Source: Chrysophaeum taylorii
Lineage: Eukaryota > Sar > Pelagophyceae > Pelagomonadales > Pelagomonadaceae
Assembly (NCBI GenBank): GCA_029834535.1
Contig: JAQMWT010000325.1
Coordinates: forward strand, 1-64,000
DNA length: 64,000 nucleotides
Direction: 5' to 3'
In this document: positions 18,191-41,104 of the stretch, piece by piece
How the letters are laid out: each line of letters begins with the position of its first letter
Position numbering within the stretch: the stretch's first letter is position 1
Made by a program: the position numbers and the translations under genes
Notes under the pieces: model-generated
What the model was told of the DNA's origin: nothing
Database searches by the model: none
What the model saw: the letters and a program-made list of their open reading frames with translations, nothing else

Positions 18191-18249
18191 ACCTAGGTGG
18201 TGATACGTGCATTCAGAGTGCGATTTGTGGGTATTTTGTTCGAGGGCTT

Positions 18250-19086
18250 GCTGTGAATGAAGCCTGAGAACATGAGGTTCAGAGTCTCAAGCTCATAGAA
18301 GCTTAGTCGAACAGAGCCTGTGCGAGAATACAGAAGAAATGTTTTGTGTGAGTGAACAAGCGGTGGATCTGGGTAAGTGCGAATCCAATTTTGAGCTAAC
18401 GGCTTAGGCAGACAGAATATTTTGGAGACAGAATGGATGTCATCAGCGATGTCCAAGAAACGCTTCGGGTGCTGGTTCGGCCAGGACAATATGTTTATTG
18501 GTCCAGTGTCGTACCTGCGAGCAATGCATATCCATCGTTCCCGAGATTGGTAATCGCCACAAAGTTAAGTAGGGAAGCGGTCGACCACATCAATGGTATA
18601 GTCCAGAGTGGCGTGAATGAGATTAGCCACTGAGATATGATCCCTGTGGATCTGCTTGTGTGGAGGCGTCATCTCCGCAAGTAGAACCAGGGGTTTCGAT
18701 AATTTGACGATGGATAGCATACTGTCGAAGAGAGAGTCGTCGAGCAAACTAACCAAGTCGGATGTTTTGGTGTTCTTGAGCAGGATCCGGTTGGTACACG
18801 GAGGAGTGATTTCTATCACGTCGCAATATAAGTGTCGTCTTTCTTCTTCTGATATAGCATGGAGATGGTTAATGAAAGAAGGAAGGGATTCGAAAACAAT
18901 GACATTTTGGAAGTGTTTGCGTAACATGCGCACAAGAGTTTCATCGGACTCAACGACGATCTTAACATCGATGTTCAAGGCCAAGTCATTTGAGGCTTGT
19001 GACAGAAACGCAGGTGTGGACAGTCCGGAACATAACAGCATGACTGTAGGTTTGCGAGAACCGTTGTTTGTGGTCGTTAAGAACAC
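18250..19086 (-). pseudogene. C5-cytosine methyltransferase-like domain, copy B1
   Basis: Lies between protease and integrase. Blocks in order: TVMLLCSGLSTPAFL (motif I-like), VKIVVESDE, DVIEITPPCTNR (motif IV-like; PPC at 18796-18804), LSKPLVLLAEMTPP (motif VI-like), CGDYQSRERWICIAR (motif VIII-like QxRxR; near 18510-18560), and VRLSFYELETLNLMF (late motif; near 18270-18310). Spacing and order match B2. This would transfer methyl groups from SAM to cytosine if active; activity is not inferable from a fossil. Confidence 0.75.
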
Positions 19087-19888: not shown

Positions 19889-21869
19889 TTATTTTGCGTG
19901 GTAGGGGATGAAGTGGCAGATTGAGATGTTGCTTGAGCAGTACTCTTGAGACACAGCAGTAACATGAGAGGAAAGCTCATTCAGCCGCTCAGGTGACAAT
20001 TGCGCTATAGCATCCGCAGTAAGACTGACTGGCTCGGTGGGAGGAGCGACGGATGGAGAGCTGTTCCCATTTGTGGTTAGTGAAGTAGAGGGGCTGGGTG
20101 CAGACTCAGACAGTTGGTCTGCCCCATAGTTTGACGACGCTGTGGTCGAATGCAGATGTATATCAACGTTCCGAACAATATCTTCGGCATAGGAAAGTTG
20201 ATCGTTAAGGCGGAGAAAGTCGGCGTTATCGTCCGAGGTAGAAGTAGCGATGATGTCAGCAGATTGCAGCAAAGTTTCAAACAGCTTGTTGATCTTATCT
20301 TGGAGTTGGGCCGTGGTTGCACTTTGGGTAGTATGCTTAGACAATTCGCGAAATTGATCTTTGAGGGCATGCACAGTGTGCTTTGTACGATCCAATAACT
20401 TCATACCCGATCGGGACGGTCTGTCAAAAGTGCGCGCATACGCAGGTCGGTCATTAGATTGGCCAGTGCTGCGAGCTCTGGTGACATAAGAGTCGCCAGA
20501 ACGGTAATAGCTAAGATCGTGAGGAGAAAAGGGCTGGCTAGCATCTTTCGAGTTACGAAGGCGTCGAGCGTTAAAAGCGGGTTTCGACTGTTGTCCATTA
20601 GCTGGAGTGGTAAGCGACGCGAAAACGTTAGCAGCGTGCGCCAGTTCAGTGTCAGTGTTATCCAAAAGTTGAGTTAATAGTAATTTTGGTTTTTGGTGGG
20701 TGGATAACCCTTCAACATGAGGAATCCAAGAGACTGGTGGTTCAAGACGTCTTTTATCGCTTGCGGTATTGGACACGGAATTGTAAAGGTCCAAAGCGAA
20801 CTCAAGGATGGACGAGGAATCAGACGGGTGACACAGTTTGTCAGCTTCAGGTCGAGCTCTGGCAGAAGAACGTGTTTCATAAATGAAACACCAGTCGACC
20901 CATATCGCATCGATTGTCGCTGGTATTGTCAGAGAAATGTTTATAAGTTTCTTCATATATTTTATGGCAAAGTGTAGACTCGTCGAACTGTAGATTTGTC
21001 TCTTCTTGGTTAAGCTGGAAATAAATATGCCTGAAGGACTGCACGCATTCAATGAAGACATGGACATACCAAATAGGATTGTACACGACAGCGTTAAATT
21101 GCTGTTTCAAATACGAAACATCGTTACTGGAGACAGAATCGTAAAGGTTAAAGGCTATGAGCATGATACCTCGGGTTTTATTGGGGTGGTAATGCCGATT
21201 GTATACTTCAGTAATGGCTGGCCAGGCCGCAAGAGCGGGCTTCCCCAAACTCTCATGGTTAAAGGAGGTATACAAAAAGGTGGAGTAGGTAGATTGGTAA
21301 ATTTGCCAATCGGCATGTGAAAAGGCAAAGGTGGACACTGGAGCGTTAATTCTTTCATCAAAGGCGAGCTCACGGGGGTAGTCGCGGTTGAGTTCCCGTT
21401 CAGCGTCTAAAAACAAGTTATTTATTTCGGGGCGAAGGGCCTTGACCTCATTATTGTAGCAGACAGTGGTCAACTGTGCAACTTCAGGGTCAGGTAAGTT
21501 AGGGAACGCCTCGGATGTAGAGGGCCAGCTCAGATATTCAGGAGGCAAGTCTTCGACATCTTGGAGGTTGAGGTCCTGCACTCTGGCGCGTTGCCAGTCC
21601 AGGAAAACCTGGTCTAGGAGCCTATTGCGCATGAATTCGTAGTCAGGGCAGGGCCTCGTATAAGCCGAATACGAGTCATATTCGAAGATGGCACCTGCGT
21701 GGTGAAAACGCAGTAGCTGTCTAATCTGTCTCACTTGGAGTGAGACCTTCCGACTTTGGAGTTGAAAGCGGTTCCCATCATAGAGAAACTCAACAACAGT
21801 GGCTTCTAATTTCAAAATATCTGCACCAGTGACTGCTTTGGGTGCGGCTCTTGCTGCTCGTTCCGCCAA
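19889..21869 (-). pseudogene. Copy B1 gag
   Basis: Starts MAERAARAAPKAVTGADIL (21869) and runs through DYEFMRNRLLDQVFLDWQR, NNEVKALRPEINNLF and NPIWYVHVFIECVQSF, then a more basic C-terminal part with FNARRLRN and a likely coiled coil around QDKINKLFETLLQSADI. No CCHC knuckle is seen. Near-identical gag blocks occur at 41430-42511 and, more distantly, at 29295-31380 and in the family A copies. Confidence 0.8.
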
Positions 21870-24480: not shown

Positions 24481-27242
24481 CTATGGGGCCTTTGCACCGG
24501 GAGCACGAGCCACGAGGCAACGGAGCTGAGAGTGAAAGGCGCAAGCGCGGGCGTTGCTAAACGTAGGCACCATGGTTGCCCTCGGTGTCGTTGTCGCCGC
24601 GGTCGTCGTCGCTGCTGTCGTCGTTGAGGGCACCAGCAAATTGCTTAAAAGGGCACTCCGCTGGTGCGTGGCCCTGGTCTTTACAGAGGCGGCAATAACG
24701 CACCCTAGTGCGCTTCCGCCGCCGTCCTCATGGGCGGAGTGGATACGGGCGCTGGGGTTCCTGGAGGGGCGTCCCTTTGGAGGGCGCATCGCAACCGGGA
24801 AGAGGATCGAGTGGTCCCGTGGAAGCTCGGAGATCTCTGCGGACGACGGAAGGTTGAAGTCGACGTCCTGAAACAGCTCCCGCCAGTGCTGAGTTGTGAG
24901 TTTTTTCGAAAAAAACCGCCAAACTTCGCGCTGGCCGCACTTGTCCACGATAACTCGAGCCCCGTGATAGCAGGGGAGGCCGGATCGATGGTAACAGCAG
25001 TCACACTCCGGCGGTCCCGTCGCATTCGCAGTGAAAGTTTTCTTGTGGACTTTCGATGGATCCACCTTGCTCCGGACGCGGGCCTCTACCTTAGTCTCGG
25101 CGTCAATCCACGAGACGTCGGGGTATCGCATGGCTTCCGCGATGATCCTGGCGAGGCGCTCCTCAACGCGCGGCGGAAGCGGCCCGACACAACCATCCGC
25201 CGCTGCTTTGTCATTTGGGAATTTCTGGCGCTGCGCCAAAAGCTCTGTCATGAGGATCACCGAGGGGCACGCCGATCGAACCTGAAGGGAATGTCAGATC
25301 AGATAACTGCACGCTCGCGATGGAATGCGACGCAACTTGTATTATGTTTATCGTCAGCGTTGTTCGATGACTCGACGGCCTGGCTTGTGACCTTTTCCGT
25401 GTCCTTGATCCCAGCGTAGATGGGAAAGATGTTCTCCTTCTTGCGATCATTTCCGAGAAGGTGTTCTTTCGCGGGATCAGACATGCGTTCCCAGATATTG
25501 TCGACTTTCCTCTTCGAGGGCGCACGGACACACAGCCAGAATCGGGCCACGTCCAAGGAATTCGACCTGACCTTTTGTTGTAGTTTCGGCGCCAGGTGCT
25601 TCGGGTCGAGCATGGCGTTCGTTTCGTTGGATTCCTTCTTATGGGCGGTGAACGTGCCTTTGTCGCCGTCCATGAGCAACACCGCGCCCGGTCGATCCAC
25701 ATGCGAAAGGAAACCGGCGCTTGCACCGTCGCACGCCGTTACCTCATTGACAAACTGAAAGAACAAGCGGTACGGATGTTCTCTCTCGTTGTCTGCGAAG
25801 TGCGAGAAGGCGACCTTGTTAATGTTGTCGTTCGAGTCTTACACCGTCCAATTGAAGATCGTGCCCAACGAGAACGCGCCCTTCCGTTCACAGTGCGCGC
25901 CGTCTATCTGATAGAAGGGGCGGGCAACTTCGGCTAGCCGCCTGCCCCAAGGTGACACGACGACCATGCCGTGGTAGTACTTCGCCGGGACATCCTCGCC
26001 ATCGACATTGACAGTATCCCTGATGTCGGAGATGTCGACGGTGCTTGGGTCGAAACCCACACGATCCGCCTCTGGCAGCTTCTTCTGCTTCTGGGCGTGC
26101 CGGTACGCCTCACAGGCGATACGGTTCTCTCGCATTTCGGCGGCATCCGAAAAAAAAAAGATGCGGACCTTGCAGCCGTACTCGTCGCAAAGCTTCTCGA
26201 CGAAGGCAGGGAGGCGCTGTAGCGCCGCGAGGCGGTCGCCGAGAAGAAGCAGTTGAGCTTGGCGCTTGATATCCCGGAGAAAGGGGAGTTTCAGGCTGTA
26301 CGAGACGAAGGGGGAGAGGAGAGTGTTGATGCCTTTGGAGGTCATTTTGGGACACTCGGCAAGGACAGGCACAACAAGACGGGCGAGACGCTGGGCCAAA
26401 TATTGACTGCGGCCGCGTTTCGATGCGATCGCAGCACAGCTTCGCGAGTGCTCCGTGTGGTTTCGCAAGACGAAGCGGCCGGTTGTCGGGGAACGTCGGT
26501 ATATCTCGACGAAAAGACACTCGGCTTGGGCCTCTTCGTCTGGCGTCGCCGCCCTAACACCACGCCGGGCCTTCTTGCTGGCGCGAGCTCGTGCCGTCTC
26601 CGCCGCACCGCAAACTACACAGAGGACGTCGTGCTTGCATTCGCGAGCTTTGAGCACGGTGCCAAATTTAGCCGATCGACCGCGCGCGAATTGTTCAGCC
26701 TGCCACCGAAACTCGAACGACGTTGCCCCGTCGCTCCCGGTCTCATTACCCACAACCAGCTCGCACGCGAGGAGCGGGTTGTGAATGCGCAGAGGCTCCC
26801 AGAAAAAGCCGCGTTCTTTCGCGAAGAGGAGCCGGCTTTGCTCCTCTACACGCCGTTTGTACGCCGCCTTCGACGCGTTGCGAGCCCGATTAATTTCCGC
26901 CGCATTCTCCTTCCTCCTTTTTTTAATGTGGCGCTTCTTCTCGCAGTTTTCGTCAGCGTCGTGGTTGTAAGAACTCGCGTCCGATTCCGTTTCACATTCA
27001 TCATCAGAATCATCGATATCGGACTCAGCCTCAACCGTCGACATAGGTACTGAGCGAGCCTCGCACGACGAGCCGACAGGAGGAGGCGGCGTCGCTCCGA
27101 AGTAGTTGCGAAGCGTTCGTAACGCTTGGTTCAGCCGCTGCATCACCTCGTGCGCCCGCTGGTCTTGCCATTTGTCCCCGTGGAACTGCCGCGCGAGGTC
27201 GCGGAACAATGCTTGCGCCTGCGCGCGGGGCGGAGACGTCAA
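24481..27242 (-). pseudogene. MULE transposase with SWIM zinc finger, interrupted
   Basis: N-terminal 467 codons (27242-25839) include an acidic/basic region (residues 75-115) and end at the first catalytic block FYQIDGAHCERKGAF near 25900. A single in-frame stop (25839-25841) separates it from the continuation in the same frame (25766-25299) that carries the second Asp, LLMDGDKGTF near 25670, and the Glu block SQAVESSNN near 25370. A frameshift around 25265-25300 leads to the last part (25260-24481) with the SWIM finger CDCCYHRSGLPCYH near 24955-25005. DDE plus SWIM is the MULE/MuDR layout. At least two inactivating changes mean this copy is not coding as it stands, unless one hides an intron. 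Confidence 0.85.
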
Positions 27243-27956: not shown

Positions 27957-28270
27957 TGCAGAGAAATCTGCTCACTCATTACCCCTTATCCGTCAGTTGA
28001 GAACGCGATCTCTTCCTTACCCTTCTTCTTCCCTTTCACACAAGTCATTAGTCTACGATATTGTGCTCACGCTCATCCTCATGGCCTAGCGCGTCCCTTA
28101 GGAACGTAGTAATCACATGTTGCCTCGGTGTGTTTCTACGTATCGTCAGCCGTTTGCCGAGGCTAGGGGGGCTGAGCCCTTTGTCCCCCGAACTCTGCCC
28201 TGCCAGACTCACGCGGTGAGACGGGATGGTTCCTCGGTGATCTTACCACTGCCTAGCGGAATTCTCTGCA
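27957..28270 (+). repeat. Copy B1' 5' LTR
   Basis: 314 bp, TGCAGAGAAATC at the start and TTCTCTGCA at the end, followed directly by GGTTATGGGCGCAGC, a one-mismatch version of the half initiator tRNA-Met primer site. Faces away from the B1 LTR at 22381-22694 across the MULE. Confidence 0.85.
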
Positions 28271-28461
28271 GGTTATGGGCGCAGCGGGGTCCTTAGGGAT
28301 CATGTGTTGCATGCACGTGCCATATGGGTTTTGGACAGATACCGCGCCGGTCTAGCCTCGCCATGCAACACAGCTGTTTGTATGCACCTTAACATGGGTT
28401 GTACATAGCTACACCGCACACGTTAAGACTGCGTGCCCCCTTGTTTATAGTATCGTGTTGT

Positions 28462-28773
28462 TGCAGATAAACCTGATGCCTCTTACCCTTATCCGTCTGT
28501 TGAGAGCGTGATCTCTTCCTTACCCTTCTTCTTCCCTCTCACACAAACTTATAGTCCTTAGTCTTGTGCTCAAGCTCATCACGATGTACTAGCGCGCCCC
28601 GAGGTATGTAGCACTATACACTTAACCTTTCTCGTGTAGTTCCAGATGCCGCCTGTCGTGTTCTGAGGATATAGGGAACATACCTTTCATTCCCCGAATT
28701 AACCTTCCAGACGTTCATGATGAGACGGGATGGTTTCCCAGGTGACTTACCACTGCATTCAGAATGCTCTGCA
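28462..28773 (+). repeat. Copy B2 5' LTR
   Basis: 312 bp, starting TGCAGATAAACC and ending GCTCTGCA. Differs from the 3' LTR (40793-41104) at about ten sites. Followed directly by the primer site. Confidence 0.9.
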
Positions 28774-28788
28774 GGTTATGGGCCCAGG
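28774..28788 (+). promoter_or_regulatory. B2 primer binding site, half initiator tRNA-Met type
   Basis: GGTTATGGGCCCAG directly after the LTR, complementary to the anticodon arm of initiator tRNA-Met, as in B1. The leader continues to the gag start near 29295 without an evident gene. Confidence 0.8.
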
Positions 28789-29294
28789 CGGGTCCCTGGG
28801 AACCCATGTGTTAAAGCGCGCACGTAACCTATGGGTTTTGGACTGTTACCGCGCCGGTCCAGCCTCGCCACGCAAACACGCTTGTCAATATAACGCCATT
28901 ACCATTGGGCTGTATATAGAATATTTTGCACACGTGATCGTGTAACCTTGTGTGCACCTGTTCATAGTATCGTGTTGTCGTGTTAATGTCGATGTGTGTG
29001 TAAGTGGCTAACCTGTACTCTTGCACGCATGTTATGGAATATTTTGGGTACGCCCACTCGCACAGTCCATGACAACGCACTTACCAAGCTCCTTGAGAGC
29101 ACCAAAATAACCAGCTGCCATGAGTGACTACGCTTCGCGAAACTACTCTGGACTCACAGCTTGCACAGTTGTCAAATAGACGTCTTTCCATCGATAACGC
29201 ATGAGTGTACATAGACACCGACAGACAGACCCCCTTAGAATGTCTAGACAGTGTCAACTGCGTGACTGAACCCACAGGTTCCCCGTCTACTGCG

Positions 29295-31380
29295 ATGGCA
29301 GAACACGCAGCACGAGCCGCACCCAAGGCGATCACAGGTGCGGACGTACTAAAGCTCGAAGCTCCTGTAGTTGAGTTACTGAACGAAGGAAATCGATTTC
29401 AGCTTCAAACTCGCAAGGTGTCCTTGCGCATTAAGCATATTAAGCAACTCTTACGGTCCAGCCATGCCGATGCCTTCTTCGAGTATGACTCGTACGAAGC
29501 ATACACTCGGTCATGCAAGGACTACGAGATCTCTCGGAATCAAATTCTCGATCGCGTTTTCCTGGAATGGAAGACCGATAGGGCTGCTGAATTCCATTTG
29601 GCTGTTGATGAATTGCCCCCTGAGTATCAGGAATGGCACTTCACCAACGAAGCTTTCCCCCACTTAACAGACGCAGACGTAGCTCAGCTCGCTACTGTCT
29701 GTTACGACAATGAAGTCAAGGCATTACGCCCTGAAATCAATGTTCGTTTCTTAGAAGAGGAACGAATCTTAAATCGCGCGCACCCGAAGGCATTGGCTTT
29801 CGACACCCGCGTTCGTGCCCCTGTTACCATGTTCTCGCTAACTGCTGCTGATTGGCACACCTATCAGAACACGTATGCTACATTCATGCATACTTACTTC
29901 AATCTTTAAAGTGTTGGAATACCGGCACTGGCGGCCTGGCCCGCCATCACTGAGGTGTATAACAAAAGTGATTTGCCCAACAAGGCTCGCGCCATTATGC
30001 TCATTGCCTTTAGTCACTACGAGTCTGTTACGACTACTGATGTATCCTACCTGAAACAGCAGTTTAACTCTGTTGCTTATAATCCTAACTGGTATGTCCA
30101 TGTCTTTATTGAAGCTGTCCTAGCATCTAGGCAAATCTCTTACCAACTTAACCAGGAAGAGACTGACCTTCAATTCGACTTTGGTACTCTTTGTATAAAA
30201 CGTTAGGACGAGATACATCGGCATTATGCCGATAATACCAGCAACAATCGTTACGATCGTGGTTGGGTAGACTGGTGTTATATGTATGAAACTCGATCTT
30301 CATCTCGGCATATGCCAGACGCTGAACGATTGTGTCATCCTACCAACCCTTGCTATATCTTAGAATACGCAGTAGACATAGATAATGTAGTATCAAATGG
30401 GTCGAATAAAAGACGCTTATAACGCCCTGTTGCTTGCCAACCTTACGTTGAAGGTTTGACACCGCAACCAAAACCGAAATTACTACTTACAAACACGCTG
30501 GATCTATCAGACAAAAGTATGACTCAAACTGCAAATGCTATTGCGTCTATTACTTCTTCTCAACCTGGAACATCCTCCGCATTTAACGCTAGACGCTTGC
30601 GTAACTCTAACGATGCATGCCAGCCTTTCTCTCGCAGCGACTTATCGTATTATCGTTCTGGTGATTCTTATGTCACCAAGAAAACTGCTGGACAGTCCCA
30701 TGACCGTCCAATTTATTATCGCACTTTCGACTGGTCTTCTCGATCTAACATGAAGTTATTGGATCGAACTAAGCACACTATAAATACACTGCAAGAGCAG
30801 TGTAGTGAACTTACGAAACATGTGACAGATAATGATATCACGGCTCAGCTACAACCCAGCTTCCTTACCCTGATCGCCGACCGCGTGGTTGCGATGGAGG
30901 ACGGTGCCTCATGAATCCTGAGCCTTGCGAGGGCATCCGCCCTCCCGGCGTAGGTTGGCACCTATTCGCCTCCCGGGCGGGCCGGTTGGCAGCCGGAACG
31001 TTCGCAGTGGGACGGGGTATGGCCGGGGGGCGCAGACGGAAGGTTATCGACGAGTTGGTTGTCAGTCACATCGCGGTCTCCTCTTCGCATGGCGACAAGC
31101 TTGATGATCACTCTTCGCCGACCCACCTTTCGGCGTCCCTCGTCTACAGGCCCGTGATTCCGGACTGGCTCCTGTCGGTCCGGCCTGGCTCCCATGCTCG
31201 GGAGAGGTCTGAAGTTAGTTAAGTTAGGCTCCGCTACAACAGAACATCGCCAAGTTGTTTGAGACTCTGTTGCAATCCGCCGATATTCTATCAACCACAT
31301 CAACTGAGGACAATGGTGACTTACTTCGTCTAAACGAACAACTCATGTTCGCCGAAGACATCATTTATGATGTAGACGTT
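29295..31380 (+). pseudogene. Copy B2 gag
   Basis: Starts MAEHAARAAPKAITGADVL. Conserved blocks: KDYEISRNQILDRVFLEWK near 29520-29575, NEVKALRPEINVRFLEEER near 29710-29765, NPNWYVHVFIEAV near 30085-30115, FNARRLRNSNDACQPFS near 30580-30630, and the helix NIAKLFETLLQSADIL near 31240-31290, which is interrupted just upstream by a retroposon. An upstream start at 29205 exists, but 29295 aligns with the B1 gag start. The region is a fossil with several breaks. Confidence 0.8.
30856..31232 (+). mobile_element. Short retroposon S1, copy 3
   Basis: About 377 bp, full length, with the CCTTACCCTGATCGCC start, the CTCCCATGCTCGGGAG hairpin and a short GTTA/TTAG tail. Flanked by GCTACAAC (30848-30855 and 31233-31240). 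Inserted in B2 gag, hence younger than B2. Confidence 0.85.
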
Positions 31381-32475
31381 CATCTATCCTCGACCGAAAA
31401 GTCGTTAAACTACGTGGAGCCACAACATCATACTGTTGCCACTGCTCCCACGCCAAAGGCAACACCTCCTACTACAGATACCAAGAATGCCTCCAACACA
31501 CAGGGTAACACCTCTGATGTAGTGCCTAACCTCTTTACTGCTTCCGCCATCTCGGCGTTACCACCAGCGTTATTGTCCTCGCTATCTTCGCAGGTCCAAT
31601 CAGCCATGAATCAACCACCACAAGCCGAAACCACAAGGGATGTCGACAAGACTTCGCTATCATCATTGGATGCGAAGTACGGCATGGCTGATGAGGCGGA
31701 CGAACCATCACCACCTGTTGAGCCGGTTATCATGCCGAATAACCTTTTATTTCTGGATAACTTCTTCACTGCCAGTCGCTCCACTACCTGCCCGCATTCG
31801 GAAAATGCCCTTTTAACGAAATATATGAAGGTAAACAGTGTTCCCCAACATTGTTCCTTTTTATGTTTTGACTCTTGTGCTACCATATCTTTAACGTCCA
31901 GCTACGACTACGCAATTCCGAATCATATTATTCCACTGGATCCCAAATACGCACCGATTATTATACAAACTGCCACTGGACAACAACGTGCCTCACATAT
32001 GATGTTAACACGTAACATAGTTGTTCCACTACCAGATCATCCACAAATCGGTTACGTGAAGATCGACTTCGCTTTATGTCTTAAACCAGTACACAACCGA
32101 CATCTCGCTATATTGAGCATGCTCGAGTGGAACCAGCCGAACTTGACCACTGTGTTCAGTGATCGATCTGAGCCAAAGCTCATCGCTGTCACGAGCCGCA
32201 TAGACAAAGATGTGCGTATTCCCATACATTACATAGCATCTAACTTGCCCGCTCTCCCTTGTCTCGCCTACAACATCGCCCGCGACAAGCAACTCGAACT
32301 ACGCTCCCTCGCATTTCCGCTCAAGCGACACCACGAAAACAGGGACCTACTGGCATATTATAACTATCTCCTCAAGAGAGTTTTACCAGGTCGCCCGCGG
32401 ATCCGCCCTTTGGTTCTTGATCTTCGGAAACAGAACAAATTTGTTCAGCAAAATACCCCACCATTAACTAACTAA
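31255..32475 (+). CDS. Copy B2 gag end and protease ORF
   Basis: Open frame of 406 codons. Begins in the gag helix FETLLQSADILST, passes the junction peptide STEKSLNYVEP (31390-31413), a Ser/Thr/Pro-rich spacer, and the aspartic protease with FDSCATISLTSSYDYAIPNH near 31868-31925 and IGYVKIDFALCLKP near 32047-32090. The catalytic Asp sits in DSCA, a variant of the usual DSGA. Ends TPPLTN, with the last codons in the tail of the retroposon at 32464. The next ORF starts in the same frame. Confidence 0.8.
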   Translation: MFETLLQSADILSTTSTEDNGDLLRLNEQLMFAEDIIYDVDVHLSSTEKSLNYVEPQHHTVATAPTPKATPPTTDTKNASNTQGNTSDVVPNLFTASAISALPPALLSSLSSQVQSAMNQPPQAETTRDVDKTSLSSLDAKYGMADEADEPSPPVEPVIMPNNLLFLDNFFTASRSTTCPHSENALLTKYMKVNSVPQHCSFLCFDSCATISLTSSYDYAIPNHIIPLDPKYAPIIIQTATGQQRASHMMLTRNIVVPLPDHPQIGYVKIDFALCLKPVHNRHLAILSMLEWNQPNLTTVFSDRSEPKLIAVTSRIDKDVRIPIHYIASNLPALPCLAYNIARDKQLELRSLAFPLKRHHENRDLLAYYNYLLKRVLPGRPRIRPLVLDLRKQNKFVQQNTPPLTN

Positions 32476-32610
32476 CTAACTTCGGACCTCTCCCGGGCAT
32501 GGGAGCCAGGCTGGGCCGGCAGTAGCCGGTCCCGGATCACAGAGCAAAAATCACACAGTTGGGGTAGAGGCGAGGGATGAAAGTGCGAGGATGGCGGACC
32601 GCCACTTCGC
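32464..32610 (-). mobile_element. Short retroposon S2, 5'-truncated copy
   Basis: Starts on + with the reverse complement of a (GTTA)n tail (TTAACTAACTAACTAACTTC), then the CTCCCGGGCATGGGAG hairpin and a head different from S1 (ATCACACAGTTGGGG, GGACCGCCACTTCG) that matches the full S2 copy at 54181-54578. Sits exactly at the boundary between the protease and methyltransferase ORFs of B2. Target duplication not resolved. Confidence 0.75.
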
Positions 32611-32613: not shown

Positions 32614-35600
32614 GTGTTTCTCTCACAAGAGCCCAATCTTCGCAAACCCTCTGTCATGTTACTTTATTCTGGTTTGTCAACCCCAGCGTTCCTGTCTCAA
32701 GCCACTAATGACCAAGGCTTAAATATCAATGTAAAAGTTGTTGTTGAGTCTGATGATGCGCTTGTGCGCATGTTACGCCACCGTTTTCCTACAGTATTAT
32801 TATTTGAATCTTTGCCCGCCTTTATTAACCATCTTCATCAAATTTCACCAGAGGAAAGGCGCAAATTTTATTGTGATATTATCGAGATAACTCCACCATG
32901 CACTAACAGGAATCTATTAAAGCAGCATAAAACCGAAGACTTACACAGTCTGCTCGACGACTCCCTCTTTGACAGCATGCTGTCTGTCATCAAACTTCTC
33001 CAACCCTTGGTACTACTGGCTGAGATGACACCACCCCACAAGTACTGTCATCAAGACCACATAACTGTGGCCAATCTCATCCATTCCACACTCGATTACT
33101 GTGTTGATGTTGTTGACAGGTTCCCGACCTACCTATGTGGCGACTACCAATCTAGGGGAAGATGGATCTGCATCGCATGCAGGTATTATACTGGACCAAT
33201 TAACATACTCTCATGGCCTATCCATCACCCACGCCCCTTCTTTAAGATCGTGGATGACATACAAGCCTTTCCTAAACGACTTTGGCTATCCAAAGATATC
33301 GCCAAAGACTGGATCCGGGTGTTCCCCGATCCCCAAGATGTCCCCGTTCCTAAAACGTTTGCACCTTACTCTCGCACAGGTTCTGTTCAGCTTACTATGA
33401 CTGACCTTGAAACACTCAATTTATTATTTCTCCGCCTTCACTCACAACAGGCTCGCGAGCAACGCACGCACTCTGTTCAATCCGAGTGTACTTATCATCA
33501 GCAGAGTTTCAAACGCTCCTCCATGGAACCACTGCCACATGCAACTAATCCATTGCGTGTCAAGGCCTTCGCCATATTAGACAACTTGTTTGCCAGATTG
33601 CACACTAACTCACCCACTCCTGTGTCCTATTACAGGACCGTTTTCGAAACTGACCAACCGTCACATAGGTTACTACTTACAACCTCATCAACATCACACA
33701 ACACCTACTTCTTAACGGGTGGCCACCACACTGACGGCAACCTCACCGTAGAAAACGCCGCCACCAAATATCATGCTTCCATTGACGCGTTTGGAAGCAC
33801 GTATACGTTTACTGCCTCCAACGTCCCCCGCGATAGAGACAGATCTGTATATTTGGAGCCGTTTGTGGGTTTCTTGTGGATCATCCAAGCCCTTCCTCAA
33901 GTTGGCTCCGCTGCCGCCTATGGCACTGCCATACAAAAGCTCTTGTCCAGATACTCTATTGTGATGCCTGGCTGCCTTGCCTACAAGGCCACCGACATTT
34001 CTTTCGACTACGAGGACTCTCACTTTGCTTTGGAAGATCACCACTTGTCCCATAGTCGCCATATAGGGTATCTTCGTGGAAGTGACCGCAAACTTGGCTC
34101 TAAAATCCACTCCATGCTTGCTCCATTGCCCACCGTCCGAGGGTATGCAAACATTATCTTACTCGACCCTCGCAACGGGAAATTGCGCTATCCCACTCGA
34201 CCGGAGTTGATTCGTACTAACAACCACACCAGACAGCAGGAATCTTTCCTCTTGTCTCTGCGCCACGACCTTTGCTGTGACATGCTCAGCAATGCTCTGC
34301 CTGCCGGTACGTACAGCACACTGTACAAGCACCTCTCGCTCCTCGTTGCCGATATTAAGTCCCTTATGTTGGACCCTACCTTCCAACATGCTGCTGCCGT
34401 GATGAAGAAATCCTATGTATCCACCTTCATGACCTTTGATCCGGCCTCCACCACGTGCAGCACAGATACCTTGTCTTTGGCACAAGCCTTCATGACTCCT
34501 AGATCCAGCAACTGCTTGACCGAAATGTCGTTAAACTATATGTCTTCGTCATCCTACGAAGATACTTTAGCTACTTGTGATGATGAGGACGCACCTCCAA
34601 GTGACCCTGCTGCGCACCAGGATGACGACGCACCGTCTCCTCCTGCCTTGGACACCGAACTCAAGTTCGATGTTCGGCGCAAACGTCATATCCCCGCTCA
34701 TCCCATTACTCGCAAATCCCTCGCACACGGATCCGCTGAATATCTCAACGCCAAAGAACGTGCCAATCGCTTCCACCGGGTGCACCACTGCCCCGACAAC
34801 GTTGCAGCCAAGGCCCCCAACGTACTGGCTCGTCCTGGCTTCTCTGCCTCAGATCTACCGTATCGCGACTTATGCACCGACTGCATCGCGCACAACAAGC
34901 GCCACCCGCACAAGCACTTCAATCCGACCAAGCCCTCTTTTGAGCAAACTCACAAAGCCTGCGAAGTCTGGGCGTGCGACGGCGGCTATGTGACAATTCC
35001 GTCAGAATGGGGAGGCTTCACCCATATCATTGTGTTCAAGGAACTTATCTCGAAGTTTCTCTTGGTGTACTTTACACGCACCACCAACGCCACGGAGTTC
35101 ACTCAAGCTCTGGACTTTGTGTATGACTTTTGTCGTACACAACTCAACGTGCACCTGCGCACCCTCTACTCATATGCTTTCAAGCCCTATTATAGCCAGC
35201 ACATTACCGCCCCGTTCCGCGTCTATAAGGGCATTCAGCTCATCGCTTTCCCGCCATACATGCACCACTTCAACTTTGAAGTTGAGTCAGCCATCGGCTT
35301 CATCGCCTCCGCCTCCTCAACTCGCCTTCGCTCTCTCCTTAATGCTCATTATCGTGGCTCCAAGATCGTGGAACCAGCCATCATGTTTCCCTGGGCGGTG
35401 ATACACACCATCCAAAGCTACAACCTTCTCCCGAACGCCACGCTCGAGCGCATTCACCATGCTATCCTGAGTCCGCAACAGCTACTCTACAATCAACTGA
35501 GCACTCCCCAGCATGACATGCTCAAGATCTTCGGCGCTGAATGCTACCTTCTATTGGAACCCCACGAGCACCACAAGTGGGAACCGTGCCGCCGCAAATA

Positions 35601-36708
35601 CTTATATCTATGTTGCGCCAACGCGCAAAACCCGCTCGTCTCCCCACGTGTTGACCATATTGCCGACGTCGTCCTCAACCCTGAAAACGGACAAATCCGT
35701 GTTTCGTCCAAGCTGCAATTCCTCTACATGCTCCAGCATCCTACTCCTGATCCTGAACTTGCTCCTCCGCCTCACGCTCCTCCCGCGCCTTTCTCGCTCA
35801 CACCCCACGCTGCTATCCAAGACCATTTCATTCAGAGGGGGACACGGACACCTCATCCTCAGAGGGGGCACTCTCCACCTCCCTCAGCTCCTTCTTCGTC
35901 CCCTGCTCCTGCTTCTCCTCCTCCTTCCGACTCTCCTCCCGTCGACGATTCTGGCTCTATGCCACCGCCGCCCTTGCTTCCTTCTTACAAAGACCTTTTT
36001 GCACAAGATGACCTCGTTCTTGTCCCAGGTTCCAAACAACCTAACAACCGCAAGGCAACCTCCATGAAAAATATCCAAGCCCGGCTGCAAGCGTCTACTA
36101 TTGGTGCTTACAAAGCCGCTGGTGGCAAACTCGCCGATTTCCGCTGGGATCTTCGCCACCACTTTCTTACGTTCAAGTCTCCCGCCCTCTCCGCCCTGCA
36201 TATCAATGGTGGTATCCTCTGGTCTGCTATCTGCTCAGAGGGGGAACATGCGTTGTTAGCTCGTCTTCTTCTCCCGTTGCGCACTGACTTACTTGCCCGT
36301 TACCCTCACGTCGATGGTTACTTCGCCCACGCTAAGTGCGCATCCAGCATCCCAGCCGCAACCTTTCTAACTGCTGATGGTTCACCTACGCGCTCCATTC
36401 CTCAGCCTCTTTTAGCTGCGTTCACTGAGCACGCTGCTGCTTTGGCATCTCTTCACAACAGTATGCACTTACGTATCTGGCGCCGACCAGCTTTATCGAT
36501 CACAACTCTTCCGAGTTTGGCGCTAATTCTGCATCTCTGTCTGACTTGGAGGAATACCTTCTGGTCTCTACAGAGTATATCACTCAGGTCTTACATGCCG
36601 ACCCTACTATCCATATTCAACTGGAATCTGCTTCCTCTACCCCTCCTACTGACGCTGTTTCCGCTTATCCCGAAGTCGCGCACACTGCCTCGACCGCAAC
36701 GTCGTTAA
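32614..36708 (+). CDS. Copy B2 methyltransferase-integrase-linker polyprotein
   Basis: A single open frame of 1364 codons. Residues about 14-275 form the C5-MTase-like domain: VMLLYSGLSTPAFL (14-27), VVVESDD (42-48), CDIIEITPPCTNR (87-99, Cys96), LLQPLVLLAEMTPP (128-141), CGDYQSRGRWICIACR (175-190), VQLTMTDLETLNLLF (258-272). The pre-integrase region has RGSDRKLGSKIHSMLAPLP near 34080-34130. A TEMSLNY junction peptide lies at 34518-34538. Integrase follows: HRVHH and CTDC zinc finger (34770-34885), WACDGGY (34970-34990), FNFEVESAIGF (35270-35300). Then a proline-rich spacer and GAYKAAGGKLADFRWDL (36100-36150). No ATG is present near the start; the frame opens at the retroposon edge. Confidence 0.85.
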   Translation: MFLSQEPNLRKPSVMLLYSGLSTPAFLSQATNDQGLNINVKVVVESDDALVRMLRHRFPTVLLFESLPAFINHLHQISPEERRKFYCDIIEITPPCTNRNLLKQHKTEDLHSLLDDSLFDSMLSVIKLLQPLVLLAEMTPPHKYCHQDHITVANLIHSTLDYCVDVVDRFPTYLCGDYQSRGRWICIACRYYTGPINILSWPIHHPRPFFKIVDDIQAFPKRLWLSKDIAKDWIRVFPDPQDVPVPKTFAPYSRTGSVQLTMTDLETLNLLFLRLHSQQAREQRTHSVQSECTYHQQSFKRSSMEPLPHATNPLRVKAFAILDNLFARLHTNSPTPVSYYRTVFETDQPSHRLLLTTSSTSHNTYFLTGGHHTDGNLTVENAATKYHASIDAFGSTYTFTASNVPRDRDRSVYLEPFVGFLWIIQALPQVGSAAAYGTAIQKLLSRYSIVMPGCLAYKATDISFDYEDSHFALEDHHLSHSRHIGYLRGSDRKLGSKIHSMLAPLPTVRGYANIILLDPRNGKLRYPTRPELIRTNNHTRQQESFLLSLRHDLCCDMLSNALPAGTYSTLYKHLSLLVADIKSLMLDPTFQHAAAVMKKSYVSTFMTFDPASTTCSTDTLSLAQAFMTPRSSNCLTEMSLNYMSSSSYEDTLATCDDEDAPPSDPAAHQDDDAPSPPALDTELKFDVRRKRHIPAHPITRKSLAHGSAEYLNAKERANRFHRVHHCPDNVAAKAPNVLARPGFSASDLPYRDLCTDCIAHNKRHPHKHFNPTKPSFEQTHKACEVWACDGGYVTIPSEWGGFTHIIVFKELISKFLLVYFTRTTNATEFTQALDFVYDFCRTQLNVHLRTLYSYAFKPYYSQHITAPFRVYKGIQLIAFPPYMHHFNFEVESAIGFIASASSTRLRSLLNAHYRGSKIVEPAIMFPWAVIHTIQSYNLLPNATLERIHHAILSPQQLLYNQLSTPQHDMLKIFGAECYLLLEPHEHHKWEPCRRKYLYLCCANAQNPLVSPRVDHIADVVLNPENGQIRVSSKLQFLYMLQHPTPDPELAPPPHAPPAPFSLTPHAAIQDHFIQRGTRTPHPQRGHSPPPSAPSSSPAPASPPPSDSPPVDDSGSMPPPPLLPSYKDLFAQDDLVLVPGSKQPNNRKATSMKNIQARLQASTIGAYKAAGGKLADFRWDLRHHFLTFKSPALSALHINGGILWSAICSEGEHALLARLLLPLRTDLLARYPHVDGYFAHAKCASSIPAATFLTADGSPTRSIPQPLLAAFTEHAAALASLHNSMHLRIWRRPALSITTLPSLALILHLCLTWRNTFWSLQSISLRSYMPTLLSIFNWNLLPLPLLLTLFPLIPKSRTLPRPQRR
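32653..33439 (+). other. C5-cytosine DNA methyltransferase-like domain (best copy)
   Basis: Domain within the 1364-codon ORF. C5-MTases share ordered motifs: I (SAM loop, FxGxG), IV (PC catalytic Cys), VI (ENV), VIII (QxRxR) and IX/X. Here the order is SGLSTPAFL, then EITPPCTNR (PPC at 32893-32901), then KLLQPLVLLAEMT, then DYQSRGRWICIAC, then RTGSVQLTMTDLETL. VIII and IV match well; motif VI reads AEM for ENV and motif I lacks a clean GxG, so the enzyme is divergent or weak. The same architecture is kept in families A, B1 and, with different sequence, C. Recurrent capture of cytosine methyltransferases by retrotransposons has been reported in dinoflagellates and charophyte algae. Confidence 0.75.
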
Positions 36709-38582
36709 ACTATAGTTCACCAGCCACTGTTGGTCCTGATGAATACAAGGTCCAAGAAGCGGACGTCTCCATAGATGAATACAAACTCAAGTGCCTCCAC
36801 GGTATGTCGCCTGAAGACAGGCACGCCTACCTCAAGGCCATCGCCAAGGAACTCCACGACATTGTCCGCTTTGGCTGCTTCAAGCTTTCATTACCCGACG
36901 GTGTCTCTCGTCCTATTGACAGCAGGATGGTGCTGAAGATTAAAACGGACTCTGCAGGCAAATACGTTAAGCACAAGGCTCGCCTCGTGCTACGTGGCTT
37001 CCTAGCCTCCCTTGGCGCCGATTTCTTTGGCACCTTCAGCCCAATGGCCACAATGACCGCAATCCGGGTACTACTGGCGATTGCAGCATACAAGCAATTG
37101 CCTGTCTACCACGCAGACGTCCCGAACGCCTTCGTTCAGTCTGACATTGATGCCAACGTCTACGTTCAGTTACCAGACGGCATCAAGCTTATCGACCCCG
37201 ATGACGCTAAGTACAAGGGCCGACGCCAACCGAAACTGCTGAAGTCACTTTATGGACTTCGGCAATCACCATCTCTTTGGAACAAAGAGATAGGCGGCTT
37301 CTTCCGTAGCCTTGGCTACAAGCGCCTGCATTCGGACTCTTGCCTATATGCTCGAGTATCCGCACATGCTAAGTTCGTCGTATGCAGTCTGTCTGTAGAC
37401 GACATTGTTATTGTGTCCAATGATGACACTCTTCGTACTGAGTTACAGGATGCCCTCCACAAACGGTATGCTGTAGAGCAGTTTGAACCTGTCCATACTC
37501 TCCTAGGCATGCGTGTGTGTCGTACATCTGATGGATCCATCTCCCTGGATGTGCAAGCCAAGCTTGATGAACTCTTCGCTGATCATCCTGTCTTGCAGCA
37601 ACTTACCCCGCTTAAATATCCTATGTCCTCGTCCTTCAAGTATAAAGATGGCACTCCCAGCTCTGAAACAGAGTTGTATATCAACTCACACTTTGCAACC
37701 CTCCTTGGCAAGCTGGTGTTCATGCAGGTCGCCTGCAGACCTGACTTCTCGCAGGCCTTGGGCAGATGTTCGCGTGGTATGCATGCACCCACGTACGTTC
37801 ATGTCCAGATGCTAGAACACCTGCTCCGCTACCTGAGGAAGCCGGAAAACCGCTCACTTCGCCTCTGGTTTCATCCTAAAGGTAATGCTATTGAAGCTCA
37901 CCTTCGCACTGTTTCCGCTAATCGAATCGATCTCTCTACTGTGGTCGACTACCAACCGCAGGATGTATCCACAGGACAGTTTGATCCCTTAGTAGCCATG
38001 GTCGACGCTGACAATGCCCCTTCCCTAGCACAGGAAGATAGGAAATCTACCACCGGGTTTGTCTTCTATCTTTTCAACTGCCTTATTTGTTGGAAAAGCA
38101 AGCTTCAACCGATTGTCTCCTGCTCAACTCACGAAGCTGAGTTGATTGCCCTCAGTATTTGTGCTGATGAAGCTGTTTGGCTACGCAAGCTGCTGTTGGA
38201 ACTTTCCTTTGTCGTCAACCCCACCTTCTACGTCAACAATGTTAATGGTGAGAACGCCGCTGATCCTGTTGACTTCGATGACAACGACAACCCAATTGCT
38301 GAAGATATGCGCTTCATCAGAAGCCTCCCTCTCTTGTCTGACAATGCTGCTGCTGTTCACACCTCTAATAACCCAGATGGATCCTCTCGCTCCAAGGCAC
38401 TGTCGACCAGATGGTTTAAGATCCGTGAGTACATCTCGCTACAGAAAATTCGAGTCCATCATGTTCCCGGCAAGCTAAACGTGGCTGATGGTTTTACAAA
38501 GCCACTTGCTGCTGAGTTCTCCACTTTTCGTTCTCTACTCGGTATGCATCATGCCTCTGATGACAAGCCTCTACAGGATTGA
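36546..38582 (+). CDS. Copy B2 reverse transcriptase-RNase H
   Basis: 678 codons. After a TATSLNYSSPA junction peptide (36690-36713), RT runs from VGPDEYKVQEADV through RFGCFKLSLPDGV, LVLRGFLASLGADFFGTFS, HADVPNAFVQSD, SLYGLRQSPSLWN (near 37245-37285) and the catalytic LSVDDIVIV (near 37390-37415). RNase H has VDADNAPSLAQEDRKSTTGF (38004-38063), STHEAELIALS (38120-38155), LLSDNAAAVHTSNNPDGSS (38330-38390) and VHHVPGKLNVADGFTKPL (38455-38510). All catalytic blocks are readable and the frame is uninterrupted. It overlaps the previous ORF in another frame. Confidence 0.9.
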   Translation: MEEYLLVSTEYITQVLHADPTIHIQLESASSTPPTDAVSAYPEVAHTASTATSLNYSSPATVGPDEYKVQEADVSIDEYKLKCLHGMSPEDRHAYLKAIAKELHDIVRFGCFKLSLPDGVSRPIDSRMVLKIKTDSAGKYVKHKARLVLRGFLASLGADFFGTFSPMATMTAIRVLLAIAAYKQLPVYHADVPNAFVQSDIDANVYVQLPDGIKLIDPDDAKYKGRRQPKLLKSLYGLRQSPSLWNKEIGGFFRSLGYKRLHSDSCLYARVSAHAKFVVCSLSVDDIVIVSNDDTLRTELQDALHKRYAVEQFEPVHTLLGMRVCRTSDGSISLDVQAKLDELFADHPVLQQLTPLKYPMSSSFKYKDGTPSSETELYINSHFATLLGKLVFMQVACRPDFSQALGRCSRGMHAPTYVHVQMLEHLLRYLRKPENRSLRLWFHPKGNAIEAHLRTVSANRIDLSTVVDYQPQDVSTGQFDPLVAMVDADNAPSLAQEDRKSTTGFVFYLFNCLICWKSKLQPIVSCSTHEAELIALSICADEAVWLRKLLLELSFVVNPTFYVNNVNGENAADPVDFDDNDNPIAEDMRFIRSLPLLSDNAAAVHTSNNPDGSSRSKALSTRWFKIREYISLQKIRVHHVPGKLNVADGFTKPLAAEFSTFRSLLGMHHASDDKPLQD

Positions 38583-39847
38583 AGATGCCTAACCCCAGTG
38601 ACCGCAACGTCGTTAAACTAGCCCTGGCCCTACCTTCTTTTGCCACAAACTCTTTTGTGCGTGTGAGTGTGTCGCCAATGTCGTTTTCTTGGCACTCCCG
38701 TGGCCGCGGCTTCTCCCCAGTCGTTCGAAGGACAGTCCCACGCTCGCTCTCCACGGCCGAACCTTCCCCCAGGTTGTCGCAAAAGCGACAAACCATGACT
38801 GCTGCTACCACACAGGCTGCTGCTGTTGCACCGACACCAGCCGTGCATGTCTCACCTCAGTCGCTGACGTTCCAGGACTGCCTCAGCATTGACTATGCTG
38901 CGTACGAGCGAGGAATCTCTCTCTTTGAGGCCTACCGTGTCCCTGTCACCCCATTTCTCTCTTCTTTTATGCGAGTGGAACTCATTACTGCTCTTCATTC
39001 CGTTTATGAGTCTAATGACTCTTCATTATTTGTGGAATTGGTTACATTCATATCCATGCGCTTGCCCATCACTATCCCTTGGGAAGCTGCTCCTGCTATT
39101 GCTTCTATTGGCTGCTATAGAGGCCCCAAACGCGAACGTTTCATTTTGTCGTCCTTTTGTACGCAATGCCTCGATGATCTTGGACAACCAACTTTCCTCG
39201 ACTCAACAACTTATAACTCAAAGGCTCAAACGCCTCGTGAACTACCTACCAAGGTAATGAGTCACCTCAACATGGACGACCATAAGAAGAATGGTCACAT
39301 CCCCATTTCTGCTATTACTGTTGGCTTGTGCCTCGCGTGTCAAAATACTGATCAGGTGCCTACGCAACCTACCGTATATGCTCGCAATGATACTTCTCTC
39401 CAATTCCCGTGTGATGCGCGCTCAGCTGGTCATATACGCGCTACCCTCATACGCGTCTATCATTTGTCAAGGGAGTTATATACTCTTTTGACAAGTATGT
39501 TAGCTCAGCAACCGTCGATTGTTAGCTTGGTCTTGTCCGTATCCGCTAATGCCACCGACCCCACCACACAATTGCCATTCGCACTGGATCTTCGGCTTAT
39601 AACACAGATGCACCTTGAGCATCTTAATTTCCTTGTGACTCTTGTTCGAACACAGAGTCGCAAAGCTCAGGCTATGTTCAAACCATCCAGGTTCCAGCAT
39701 GTGGTCACTACTGTTGCTCAATCTTGGGTACAACATCTTGACGACTACGTATCATCTTCAGATGATACAAAACCGCCGTCACTTCTGGATGAGATGTTCG
39801 GCCCCACTTATACTCAGGCAGAACATCAAGACTTTCTGCGCTTTTAA
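38579..39847 (+). CDS. Copy B2 ORF3a, extra gene after RNase H
   Basis: 422 codons, overlapping the end of the RT-RNase H ORF by a few bases. A Ser/Arg/Pro-rich start is followed by a globular part with CTQC (194-197), CLAC (251-254), C278 and H285 in the block FPCDARSAGHIRATLIRV. The family A ORF3 has CTKC, 54 residues, CVMC, 20 residues, C-x6-HIRA: nearly the same spacing, so a metal-binding fold is likely. No homology to gag, pol or envelope is recognised and no membrane segment stands out. A nucleotide copy of the junction motif lies at 38600-38620 but in another frame. Confidence 0.7.
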   Translation: MKMPNPSDRNVVKLALALPSFATNSFVRVSVSPMSFSWHSRGRGFSPVVRRTVPRSLSTAEPSPRLSQKRQTMTAATTQAAAVAPTPAVHVSPQSLTFQDCLSIDYAAYERGISLFEAYRVPVTPFLSSFMRVELITALHSVYESNDSSLFVELVTFISMRLPITIPWEAAPAIASIGCYRGPKRERFILSSFCTQCLDDLGQPTFLDSTTYNSKAQTPRELPTKVMSHLNMDDHKKNGHIPISAITVGLCLACQNTDQVPTQPTVYARNDTSLQFPCDARSAGHIRATLIRVYHLSRELYTLLTSMLAQQPSIVSLVLSVSANATDPTTQLPFALDLRLITQMHLEHLNFLVTLVRTQSRKAQAMFKPSRFQHVVTTVAQSWVQHLDDYVSSSDDTKPPSLLDEMFGPTYTQAEHQDFLRF

Positions 39848-39880: not shown

Positions 39881-40648
39881 TTGACCGAAACGTCGTTAAA
39901 CTACTCACACTCGACGTCAGACCCTACACTGGAAATATCTTCGCCATCGTCACATCCTACGCCTTCTGCTTCGCTTGCTGATTTCGACGCCTTGCGTCAA
40001 CAAGTCGAACAGCTCCAGGAAACTCTTCGAGTCCATGTTCGCAAGGTCAACGCTCTCAGTGCTGAGAATCTGTCCCTGCGTACAGATCTACAGGCTGCTA
40101 TTGCTTCAATCACTTCCCTGGAGAACCGGCTCTTTCCTCCTACAGCCAACGCTCATGTGTTACTTATAACACTGTACAAGATCACGGAGCTGTTGTCTCG
40201 CTTAACATTAACCGCACATGAACAACATGTCTCCAATCACCCTTCCCCGGACGATCACCTTCTTCATCTGCGTGACAAGTTACTGTCATGTATTCAGAGT
40301 ATTCCTCTCTCATGCGAATCGGAAGACTCTTCTATCTTCACGGATCCGTTCGCCGAGTCCAATTTCCTGGAAAACCAACTGGACACCTTACAACTTGATT
40401 CACTTGTTCCATCCATACTGAATGCTTTACTTGCACTCACATTTCGCATGGCACCACACCATTCAGCTATTGGTGTTCACCACCTTACAGCAGAAGCTGA
40501 CGACGATTCCAACACTCTCGAACCAGTAACGATGTCTACCACCTCAGATAATCCTAACACACTATCTGTTGTACCTTCTGCTGTGTTTCGTAACGTTCTG
40601 GTCAAAAGCATCAAATCTACTCTCAGTTCCACCAAATCTAAGCCTTAA
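39881..40648 (+). CDS. Copy B2 ORF3b, coiled-coil protein
   Basis: 255 codons. Opens with TETSLNYSHS, another junction peptide (39883-39903), which suggests that it is released from the product of ORF3a. Residues about 30-85 carry a heptad pattern (FDALRQQVEQLQETLRVHV, LSAENLSLRTDLQAAIASI) typical of a coiled coil. The family A ORF3 has a comparable coiled coil in its C-terminal part after the Cys/His block, so ORF3a plus ORF3b correspond to the single family A ORF3. Initiation codon uncertain (TTG at 39881). Confidence 0.65.
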   Translation: MTETSLNYSHSTSDPTLEISSPSSHPTPSASLADFDALRQQVEQLQETLRVHVRKVNALSAENLSLRTDLQAAIASITSLENRLFPPTANAHVLLITLYKITELLSRLTLTAHEQHVSNHPSPDDHLLHLRDKLLSCIQSIPLSCESEDSSIFTDPFAESNFLENQLDTLQLDSLVPSILNALLALTFRMAPHHSAIGVHHLTAEADDDSNTLEPVTMSTTSDNPNTLSVVPSAVFRNVLVKSIKSTLSSTKSKP

Positions 40649-40792: not shown

Positions 40793-41104
40793 TGCAGAGA
40801 AATCTGATGCCTCTTACCCTTATCCGTCCGTTGAGAACGTGATCTCTTCCTTACCCTTCTTCTTCCCTCTCACACAAACTTATAGTCCTTAGTCTTGTGC
40901 TCAAGCTCATCACGATGTACTAGCGCGCCCCGAGGTATGTAGCACTATACACTTAACCTTTCTCGTGTAGTTCTAGATGCCGCCTGTCGTGTTCTGAGGA
41001 TAGAGGGAACATGCCTTTCATTCCCCGAATTAACCTTCCAGACGTTCATGATGAGACGGGGTGGTTTCCCAGGTGACTTACCACTGCATGCAGCATGCTC
41101 TGCC
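40793..41104 (+). repeat. Copy B2 3' LTR
   Basis: 312 bp, TGCAGAGAAATC at the start and GCTCTGCC at the end; the same length as the 5' LTR. What follows (ATTGTCGTGAAAGTG) is the leader of B1'. Confidence 0.9.

Follow-up and report, generated by a model that had tools for sequence, protein, structure and literature searches.

We analyzed a 64,000-nucleotide stretch of DNA from the pelagophyte alga Chrysophaeum taylorii (assembly GCA_029834535.1, contig JAQMWT010000325.1, positions 1 to 64,000 of the forward strand; hereafter, the window) that carries a retrotransposon with long terminal repeats (LTRs), in which the long Pol reading frame opens with a domain resembling C5-cytosine methyltransferases (MTases). 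The source assembly comprises 70.8 Mb, and the words retrotransposon, transposable, repeat and LTR are absent from the main text of the C. taylorii genome paper (PMC10366177). The features of the element, including its open reading frames (ORFs), are as follows.

28462-28772, plus strand: 5' LTR (local alignment to the 3' LTR, 301 of 311 positions identical)
28774-28788, plus strand: putative primer-binding site GGTTATGGGCCCAGG, read from the sequence, starting one base past the aligned 5' LTR end
29205-29909, plus strand: ORF in the gag position, from the ORF list; frame broken further on
31255-32475, plus strand: protease-like ORF with an FDSCAT motif, closing at an in-frame stop just 5' of the MTase frame
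32473-32580, plus strand: border between protease and MTase, holding two in-frame stops, TAA (32473-32475) and TGA (32578-32580)
32614-36708, plus strand: Pol frame of 1364 codons with MTase domain, spacer and integrase (ORF list, Pfam)
32641-33513, plus strand: C5-cytosine-methyltransferase-like domain of 291 amino acids (motifs, selection analysis, Pfam matches of copies, hhalign, predicted fold)
34954-35622, plus strand: weak integrase core (rve, Pfam E 0.17) and copia-type SH3 domain (SH3_retrovirus, E 3.6e-4)
36546-38582, plus strand: ORF for reverse transcriptase (RVT_2) and RNase H, read in a different frame and sharing 163 bases with the Pol frame
38579-39847 and 39881-40648, plus strand: two ORFs between the reverse transcriptase (RT) and the 3' LTR (ORF list, Pfam)
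40793-41103, plus strand: 3' LTR (local alignment to the 5' LTR)

The element has the parts that define Ty1/copia retrotransposons, namely LTRs, an RVT_2 reverse transcriptase (E 5.1e-42, residues 116-337 of its ORF) and an integrase that precedes it, the position of the integrase being taken from rve and SH3_retrovirus matches that both fall under the curated Pfam cut-offs. We take part of the RVT_2 ORF to be RNase H and the FDSCAT motif to mark a protease, the protease-like ORF itself being without a match in a Pfam scan; the putative primer-binding site GGTTATGGGCCCAGG presumably resembles the situation in Drosophila copia, whose primer is the anticodon arm of the initiator tRNA. The length of the Pol frame is counted from a GTG under a bacterial start rule, and from stop to stop it holds 1375 open codons. 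The gag region is split over several frames, the N-terminus of the gag-position ORF resembling by eye an ORF (20877-21869, minus strand) of a second element copy, and the target-site duplication has at best one mismatch (GTTGT in the 5' flank, ATTGT one base past the aligned 3' LTR end). While the LTRs, the integrase-then-RT order and RVT_2 are shared with Ty1/copia elements (Pseudoviridae), the MTase domain, a TGA at the protease-MTase border, the two ORFs after the RT and a total length of ~12.6 kb set this element apart. Neither of those two ORFs matched a Pfam family above cut-off, and the second (39881-40648) gave weak coiled-coil-like matches. A further long ORF (11183-12532) lies downstream of a third MTase-domain copy in the window and could conceivably be related to them.

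We interpret the element as a Ty1/copia-type LTR retrotransposon whose Pol has at its start a C5-cytosine methyltransferase domain that was captured and has diverged rapidly, a reading to which we assign a probability of about 0.6.

Motifs and selection in the methyltransferase-like domain

A reading made earlier from the sequence alone had placed a divergent C5-MTase-like domain at 32653-33439, inside a copia polyprotein between protease and integrase. All the sequence blocks on which that reading was built occur in the frame 32614-36708 in the order given, and a domain is present there, with better limits at 32641-33513. Its position between protease and integrase held; the frame is not a clean polyprotein start, an in-frame stop following the protease-like ORF. 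The motifs of the domain (all plus strand) are listed below.

32656-32688: motif I region, MLLYSGLSTPA, paired by hhalign with FYSGLGG of DNMT2; strand 4-8 of the predicted model
32893-32901: motif IV, PPC, paired by hhalign with SPPC of DNMT2; putative catalytic Cys
33022-33030: motif VI, EMT where ENV is expected; the Glu is domain residue 128, at the end of model strand 125-128
33148-33162: motif VIII, QSRGR, conforming to QxRxR; domain residues 170-174, just ahead of model strand 175-180
33382-33411: motif IX/X-like SVQLTMTDLE, of uncertain assignment, following a short putative target-recognition stretch

The Cys of the PPC is residue 96 of the ORF, as the sequence-only reading had it, and residue 87 of the domain. 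It is invariant in all 19 copies without stops and in all 11 sequences of a second set (six sequences are in both), as are Glu128, in the context EMT, and Gln170, Arg172 and Arg174, so that motif VIII is not divergent. The divergence proposed for motif I was borne out, FxGxG being present only in part: the window copy reads YSGLS, the first Gly is found in 10 of 11 sequences (Ala in L046) and the second is absent. The motif IX/X-like region is paired by hhalign with GTGSVL of DNMT2 or with the corresponding part of a second MTase family of this genome (family B, below).

Copies of the domain are numerous. Genome searches with the domain family of the window copy (family A) and with its sister subfamily A3 returned at least 136 matches (134 of 1099 candidates scored) and at least 150 matches (150 of 640 scored), respectively, both counts being lower bounds in which some matches are split copies. 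Across 231 pairs from 22 copies, the ratio of nonsynonymous to synonymous divergence (dN/dS) averages 0.18 in the domain, compared with 1.46 and 2.12 in the shifted frames; the copies used were 22 of 28 distinct ones, the six of other lengths being omitted and copies with stops retained with their stop codons skipped. Because no motif residue varies among the 19 copies without stops and dN/dS is low relative to the shifted frames, the blocks exceed what chance would give. An MTase in the coding frame, multiple copies and purifying selection, the marks of a retrotransposon bearing a DNA methyltransferase (DNMT), are thus all found here. An 18-copy comparison gave 0.16 for the domain, the second half of the protease-like ORF (31846-32472) 0.08 (16 copies) and four in-frame pieces downstream of the domain, two of them overlapping, 0.21-0.29, copies matching less than 80% or 70% of a piece having been omitted from these piecewise estimates; in A3 the value was 0.09 (7 copies).

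Within the domain, dN/dS is lowest (0.09) at residues 1-30 and 121-180 and highest after motif VIII (0.23-0.31 at residues 181-270). This fast-evolving part and the altered motifs I and VI would suit a catalytically dead relative retained in Pol to bind nucleic acid or to serve a structural purpose, which we regard as improbable given the invariance of Cys87, Glu128, Gln170, Arg172 and Arg174 in both sets and the location of the slowest-evolving segments. The binding-only domain that the sequence-only reading had offered as an option is likewise disfavoured, because the Cys, the Glu and QxRxR are all retained.

Profile and fold evidence

The sequence-only reading had proposed a comparison with Pfam PF00145, which succeeded in part: the window copy gave no match, and two of 19 close copies matched below the curated cut-off (best E 0.0053). 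PF00145 was the only family matched by any of these 19 copies. L035 matched PF00145 (E 0.031) and no other family, and L058 matched it at E 0.18, level with the unrelated DUF2441. Because the window copy is unmatched and its copies fall below the cut-off, we do not file the domain as a member of PF00145. In hhalign, family A aligned colinearly with a DNMT2 profile at 17% identity over aligned columns, part of it with the DNMT2 segment CFTKSYGRYVRGTGSVL. The alignments drew on a profile (A1) from 19 of 29 full-length rows, omitting eight with stops, L001 (the window copy) and L041, and on a profile (A4) combining six sequences from A1 with five of A3 type; the reference profile held 112 of 120 proteins, selected by length, every third of which was used in the shuffle test. 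Likeness to the DNMT2 profile does not discriminate among MTase classes, because only DNMT2-like proteins were available.

A predicted model of residues 1-195 (predicted local distance difference test score, pLDDT, 55.8) has the Rossmann-like sheet of class I S-adenosylmethionine-dependent methyltransferases, the fold that the sequence-only reading had named as support, with C5-MTases as its best PDB matches. Human and insect DNMT2 took the top four Foldseek places, and VIA-align left DNMT1, M.HhaI, M.HaeIII, DNMT3 and DNMT2 tied. Membership of the domain in the C5-cytosine methyltransferase superfamily is thus supported by predicted fold and catalytic residues, and catalytic chemistry is probable; the C5-MTase-like character first read from the letters is upheld by the PF00145 matches of copies, the fold and the PF00145-positive families of the same genome.

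Several results weigh against this interpretation. The window copy of the domain matched nothing in a Pfam scan at E<=10, and sequence searches of the PDB with profiles A1 and A4 found no MTase. The top shuffle comes near the observed profile score, motif I lacks its second Gly, and motif VI reads EMT, not ENV. Foldseek TM-scores for the model of residues 1-195 were 0.44-0.59 by query length, and four of five models of the trimmed run had pLDDT of 40-43. The full-length AlphaFold model was poor (pLDDT 43.8), with no Foldseek match at E<=0.001 (best, human DNMT2 at E 0.013) and a mixed VIA list in which 11 of 50 rows were C5-MTases; we set this model and its searches aside as stand-alone evidence. 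The integrase and protease assignments depend on sub-cut-off matches and motifs. Finally, a mutational trace of CG methylation, sought in copy pairs, gave no clear signal: over 231 pairs, C-to-T change was 0.092 at CG, 0.092 at CT, 0.082 at CA and 0.077 at CC, and in 60 close pairs CG was highest by a small margin (0.032 versus 0.024-0.029 elsewhere). Observed/expected CpG comes to 0.91 for the element and 0.75 for the domain (TpG+CpA 1.27), against 1.26 and 1.46 at two host loci. Taken together, these rates and ratios neither clearly indicate lasting CG methylation nor clearly speak against it.

The missing Pfam match could also mean that the domain is an ordinary, fast-evolving copia Pol spacer in which PC and QxRxR occur by accident; in a composition control, the two stood 60-110 residues apart in 200 of 50,000 shuffled versions of the domain. 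The fold match, the colinear profile alignment, PF00145 as the sole family among copies and the presence in the same genome of family B, with PF00145-positive domains after a protease-like motif, largely refute that explanation, and we consider it very improbable. Searches of a 5.8-billion-protein collection, limited to proteins of 0.55-1.75 times the query length that share 5-residue words with it, returned no homologue of Pol frame residues 1-310 (E<=1) or of the domain of a third family, C (E<=0.01), and scans of viral contigs with A4, with A2 (a profile from pieces of 11 of 18 family B loci) and with the host DNMT2-like gene L009 gave no match.

The border stop codon and possible roles of the domain

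The protease-like ORF and the MTase share one frame, with a stop in between. In 19 of 22 family A copies, the in-frame stop nearest the domain on its 5' side is a TGA, 15-16 codons upstream; in A3, 10 of 11 copies (L054-L064) have a TGA as this stop, at a distance of 18 codons. The border of L033 has the TGA at its usual place and an additional TAG, that of L044 has no stop, its frame being altered upstream, and that of the window copy holds an insertion with the TAA and the TGA that is absent from the other copies shown. The base after the TGA in the 19 family A copies is C in 10 (CTA in eight) and A in nine (ATG in six). TGA-CTA is a leaky stop context. Retention of the TGA in two subfamilies, often as TGA-CTA or TGA-ATG, makes this border a candidate site of programmed readthrough or reinitiation. 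The border also contains one arm of a 68-base inverted repeat (31154-31221 and 32473-32540, 87% complementary), its second arm lying inside the insertion.

We hypothesize that readthrough of the border TGA, or reinitiation after it, would yield an MTase-integrase-RT protein at a low ratio, like retroviral Pol, with the MTase as its first domain. The MTase would then enter the particle together with the reverse transcriptase and, ahead of integration, methylate cytosines in nucleic acid of the element itself, most likely in freshly made cDNA; a new copy might thereby arrive pre-marked and be tolerated or protected. Methylation of element nucleic acid in the particle is the likeliest role of the domain, its substrate and benefit being conjectural. 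The sequence-only reading had proposed that the domain may mark element DNA or counter host silencing, which is likewise conjectural.

The domain may instead be an RNA cytosine methyltransferase that, in the manner of DNMT2, acts on element RNA or a tRNA such as the primer and not on DNA. The leading Foldseek places of DNMT2, the alignment with its segment CFTKSYGRYVRGTGSVL, the lack of a clear CG mutation signature and a putative primer-binding site that presumably points to a tRNA primer are all compatible with this idea. VIA-align, however, puts DNMT1, M.HhaI and M.HaeIII level with or above DNMT2 in tied rows, the profile likeness to DNMT2 is non-discriminating, and the CpG-poor composition of the domain would fit some DNA methylation. 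RNA methylation has been raised by de Mendoza et al. for the SymbioLINE DNMT, which failed on DNA in yeast (PMC5890265). On balance we consider action on RNA unlikely, if somewhat less so than a dead enzyme.

Other methyltransferase families, known systems and meaning

Two further A-type copies of the domain and one of family B lie in the window.

18188-19056, minus strand: second MTase-domain copy, 70-71% identical, interrupted once by a stop and once by a frame change
1997-2803, plus strand: third MTase-domain copy, subfamily A3, 49-69% identical by piece, in a broken frame
50216-50943, minus strand: family B MTase domain, split, with its N-terminal part at 59882-59986 and an LTR element between

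A genome search with PF00145 gave 124 matches, among which L009, L010, L011-L028, L049-L052 and L065 were classified. Family B is carried by all 18 loci L011-L028, with motifs TLPCQ and VENVPP and a dN/dS of 0.12 (7 copies). Several of these loci have the MTase and a protease-like motif together in a single frame, and a copia-type RT with the same orientation (RVT_2 E 5.5e-32) lies near the broken window copy. Family C comprises all four short N-terminal PF00145 matches examined (L049, L050, L051 and L065), with L052 as a divergent relative (E 7.6e-9). In L065 the MTase (PF00145 E 4.4e-5), RVT_1 (1.7e-12) and RNase H are in one frame and the integrase in a later one; because of this order, family C is assigned to the Ty3/gypsy type. 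Its MTase is read in one frame with a protease-like stretch, which, like that of family B, we take to be a protease, and its sole pair (dN/dS 0.74 at dS 0.029) is too close to judge. Both families pass the PF00145 cut-off (E 4.1e-9 for one family B domain, 3.6e-6 for L050). The host has a DNMT2-like gene of its own on another contig (L009, 100% identical to CTAYLR_008533 of C. taylorii) and a DNMT5-like gene (L010/L066) with PF00145 (7.9e-18) and SNF2 (1.1e-13) in one 2086-codon frame by coordinates; DNMT5a has been reported from pelagophytes (PMC9998398).

The colinear alignment of A4 with family B (hhalign E 0.024, a score reached by 3 of 200 shuffles) is suggestive of a single capture; relatedness is not established by hhalign alone, because reversed B scores higher (24.6 versus 22.5). 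A4 also aligned with C (E 0.011, a score reached by none of 200 shuffles), and hhalign found no similarity between B and C. A tentative, rather doubtful extension would be that pelagophyte LTR retrotransposons took up C5-methyltransferases at least twice, in an old copia-type capture between protease and integrase common to several families and in a separate gypsy-type one before the RT; that the conserved UGA makes the MTase the first Pol domain in two copia subfamilies; and that the enzyme works within the particle, where its target, as for DNMT2, may be RNA or the tRNA primer and not CG sites of DNA. If true, a captured DNMT would have taken on a new function.

A few observations concern the rest of the window. 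The LTR element inside the family B domain (50949-59875, with 95% identical repeats at 50949-51134 and 59690-59875) has no RT recognizable by eye in its longest frames. A segment at 54625-55080 with a family B-like BLAST match (E 9.3e-6) was rejected, having no motifs in place and no Pfam match, and is probably a product of chance or composition. Just 5' of the 5' LTR, 27983-28368 contains stretches 74-88% like the 5' LTR and leader, probably a remnant of a related element. Minus-strand ORFs at 24481-27242 have a CxC...CxH zinc-like stretch that presumably recalls MULE-type transposases, and a Pfam scan of 25839-27239 found nothing above cut-off. On locus L034, a minus-strand fragment (3988-4203) 50% like the N-terminus of the family C MTase lies less than 2 kb from a family A copy, as a nested insertion or a chance neighbour.

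Retrotransposons of this kind are already known, and those described, apart from SymbioLINE, carry enzymes of the Dnmt3 class. In the 2018 study (PMC5890265), the SymbioDIRS-Dnmt3 and SymbioLINE-Dnmt elements of Symbiodinium likewise have a C5-MTase in the coding frame, high copy number and purifying selection, but they are DIRS and LINE elements and not LTR copia, with Dnmt3 or orphan-class enzymes whose key residues are conserved. SymbioDIRS-Dnmt3 enzymes performed de novo CG methylation in yeast and the tested SymbioLINE enzyme did not; self-methylation of cDNA was suggested by the authors, and Copia elements of Symbiodinium were described as lacking a DNMT domain. KnitGypsy-Dnmt3 of Klebsormidium nitens shares the LTR structure, the MTase inside Pol and a Ka/Ks below 0.2, but is a Gypsy element with a Dnmt3, whose counterpart here is the gypsy-type family C; the element in the window, in contrast, is of copia type, with its MTase between protease-like ORF and integrase, downstream of a TGA that is conserved, and so diverged that PF00145 misses it. 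According to one sentence in the available passages of another paper (PMC12344493), which cites the 2018 study, some DNMT3 lie inside LTR elements of the Copia type and inside DIRS elements; it shares the pairing of copia with a DNMT, but concerns DNMT3 of streptophytes and dinoflagellates, and those passages show no element. Its Copia wording may be a slip, since the charophyte element is named Gypsy in the 2018 study. DNMT2 (TRDMT1), which supplies the best Foldseek matches and the colinear alignment, differs in being a free-standing host tRNA enzyme and in its low identity to the domain. In the portions available of the literature on DNMT-bearing elements we found no copia MTase in a stramenopile. 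Apparently new are the location within a copia element, between protease and integrase, the TGA at the border, a divergence that PF00145 does not span and the presence of a gypsy family in the same alga.

Why elements should carry an enzyme of the type hosts use for silencing is a puzzle already posed by dinoflagellates and a charophyte. Here, several hundred domain matches occur in two LTR superfamilies of a 70.8 Mb alga, one set of them missed by PF00145, which suggests that surveys based on PF00145 may understate the frequency of DNMT capture. The host's own DNMT2-like and DNMT5-like genes make the question of whether such elements mark DNA or RNA testable.
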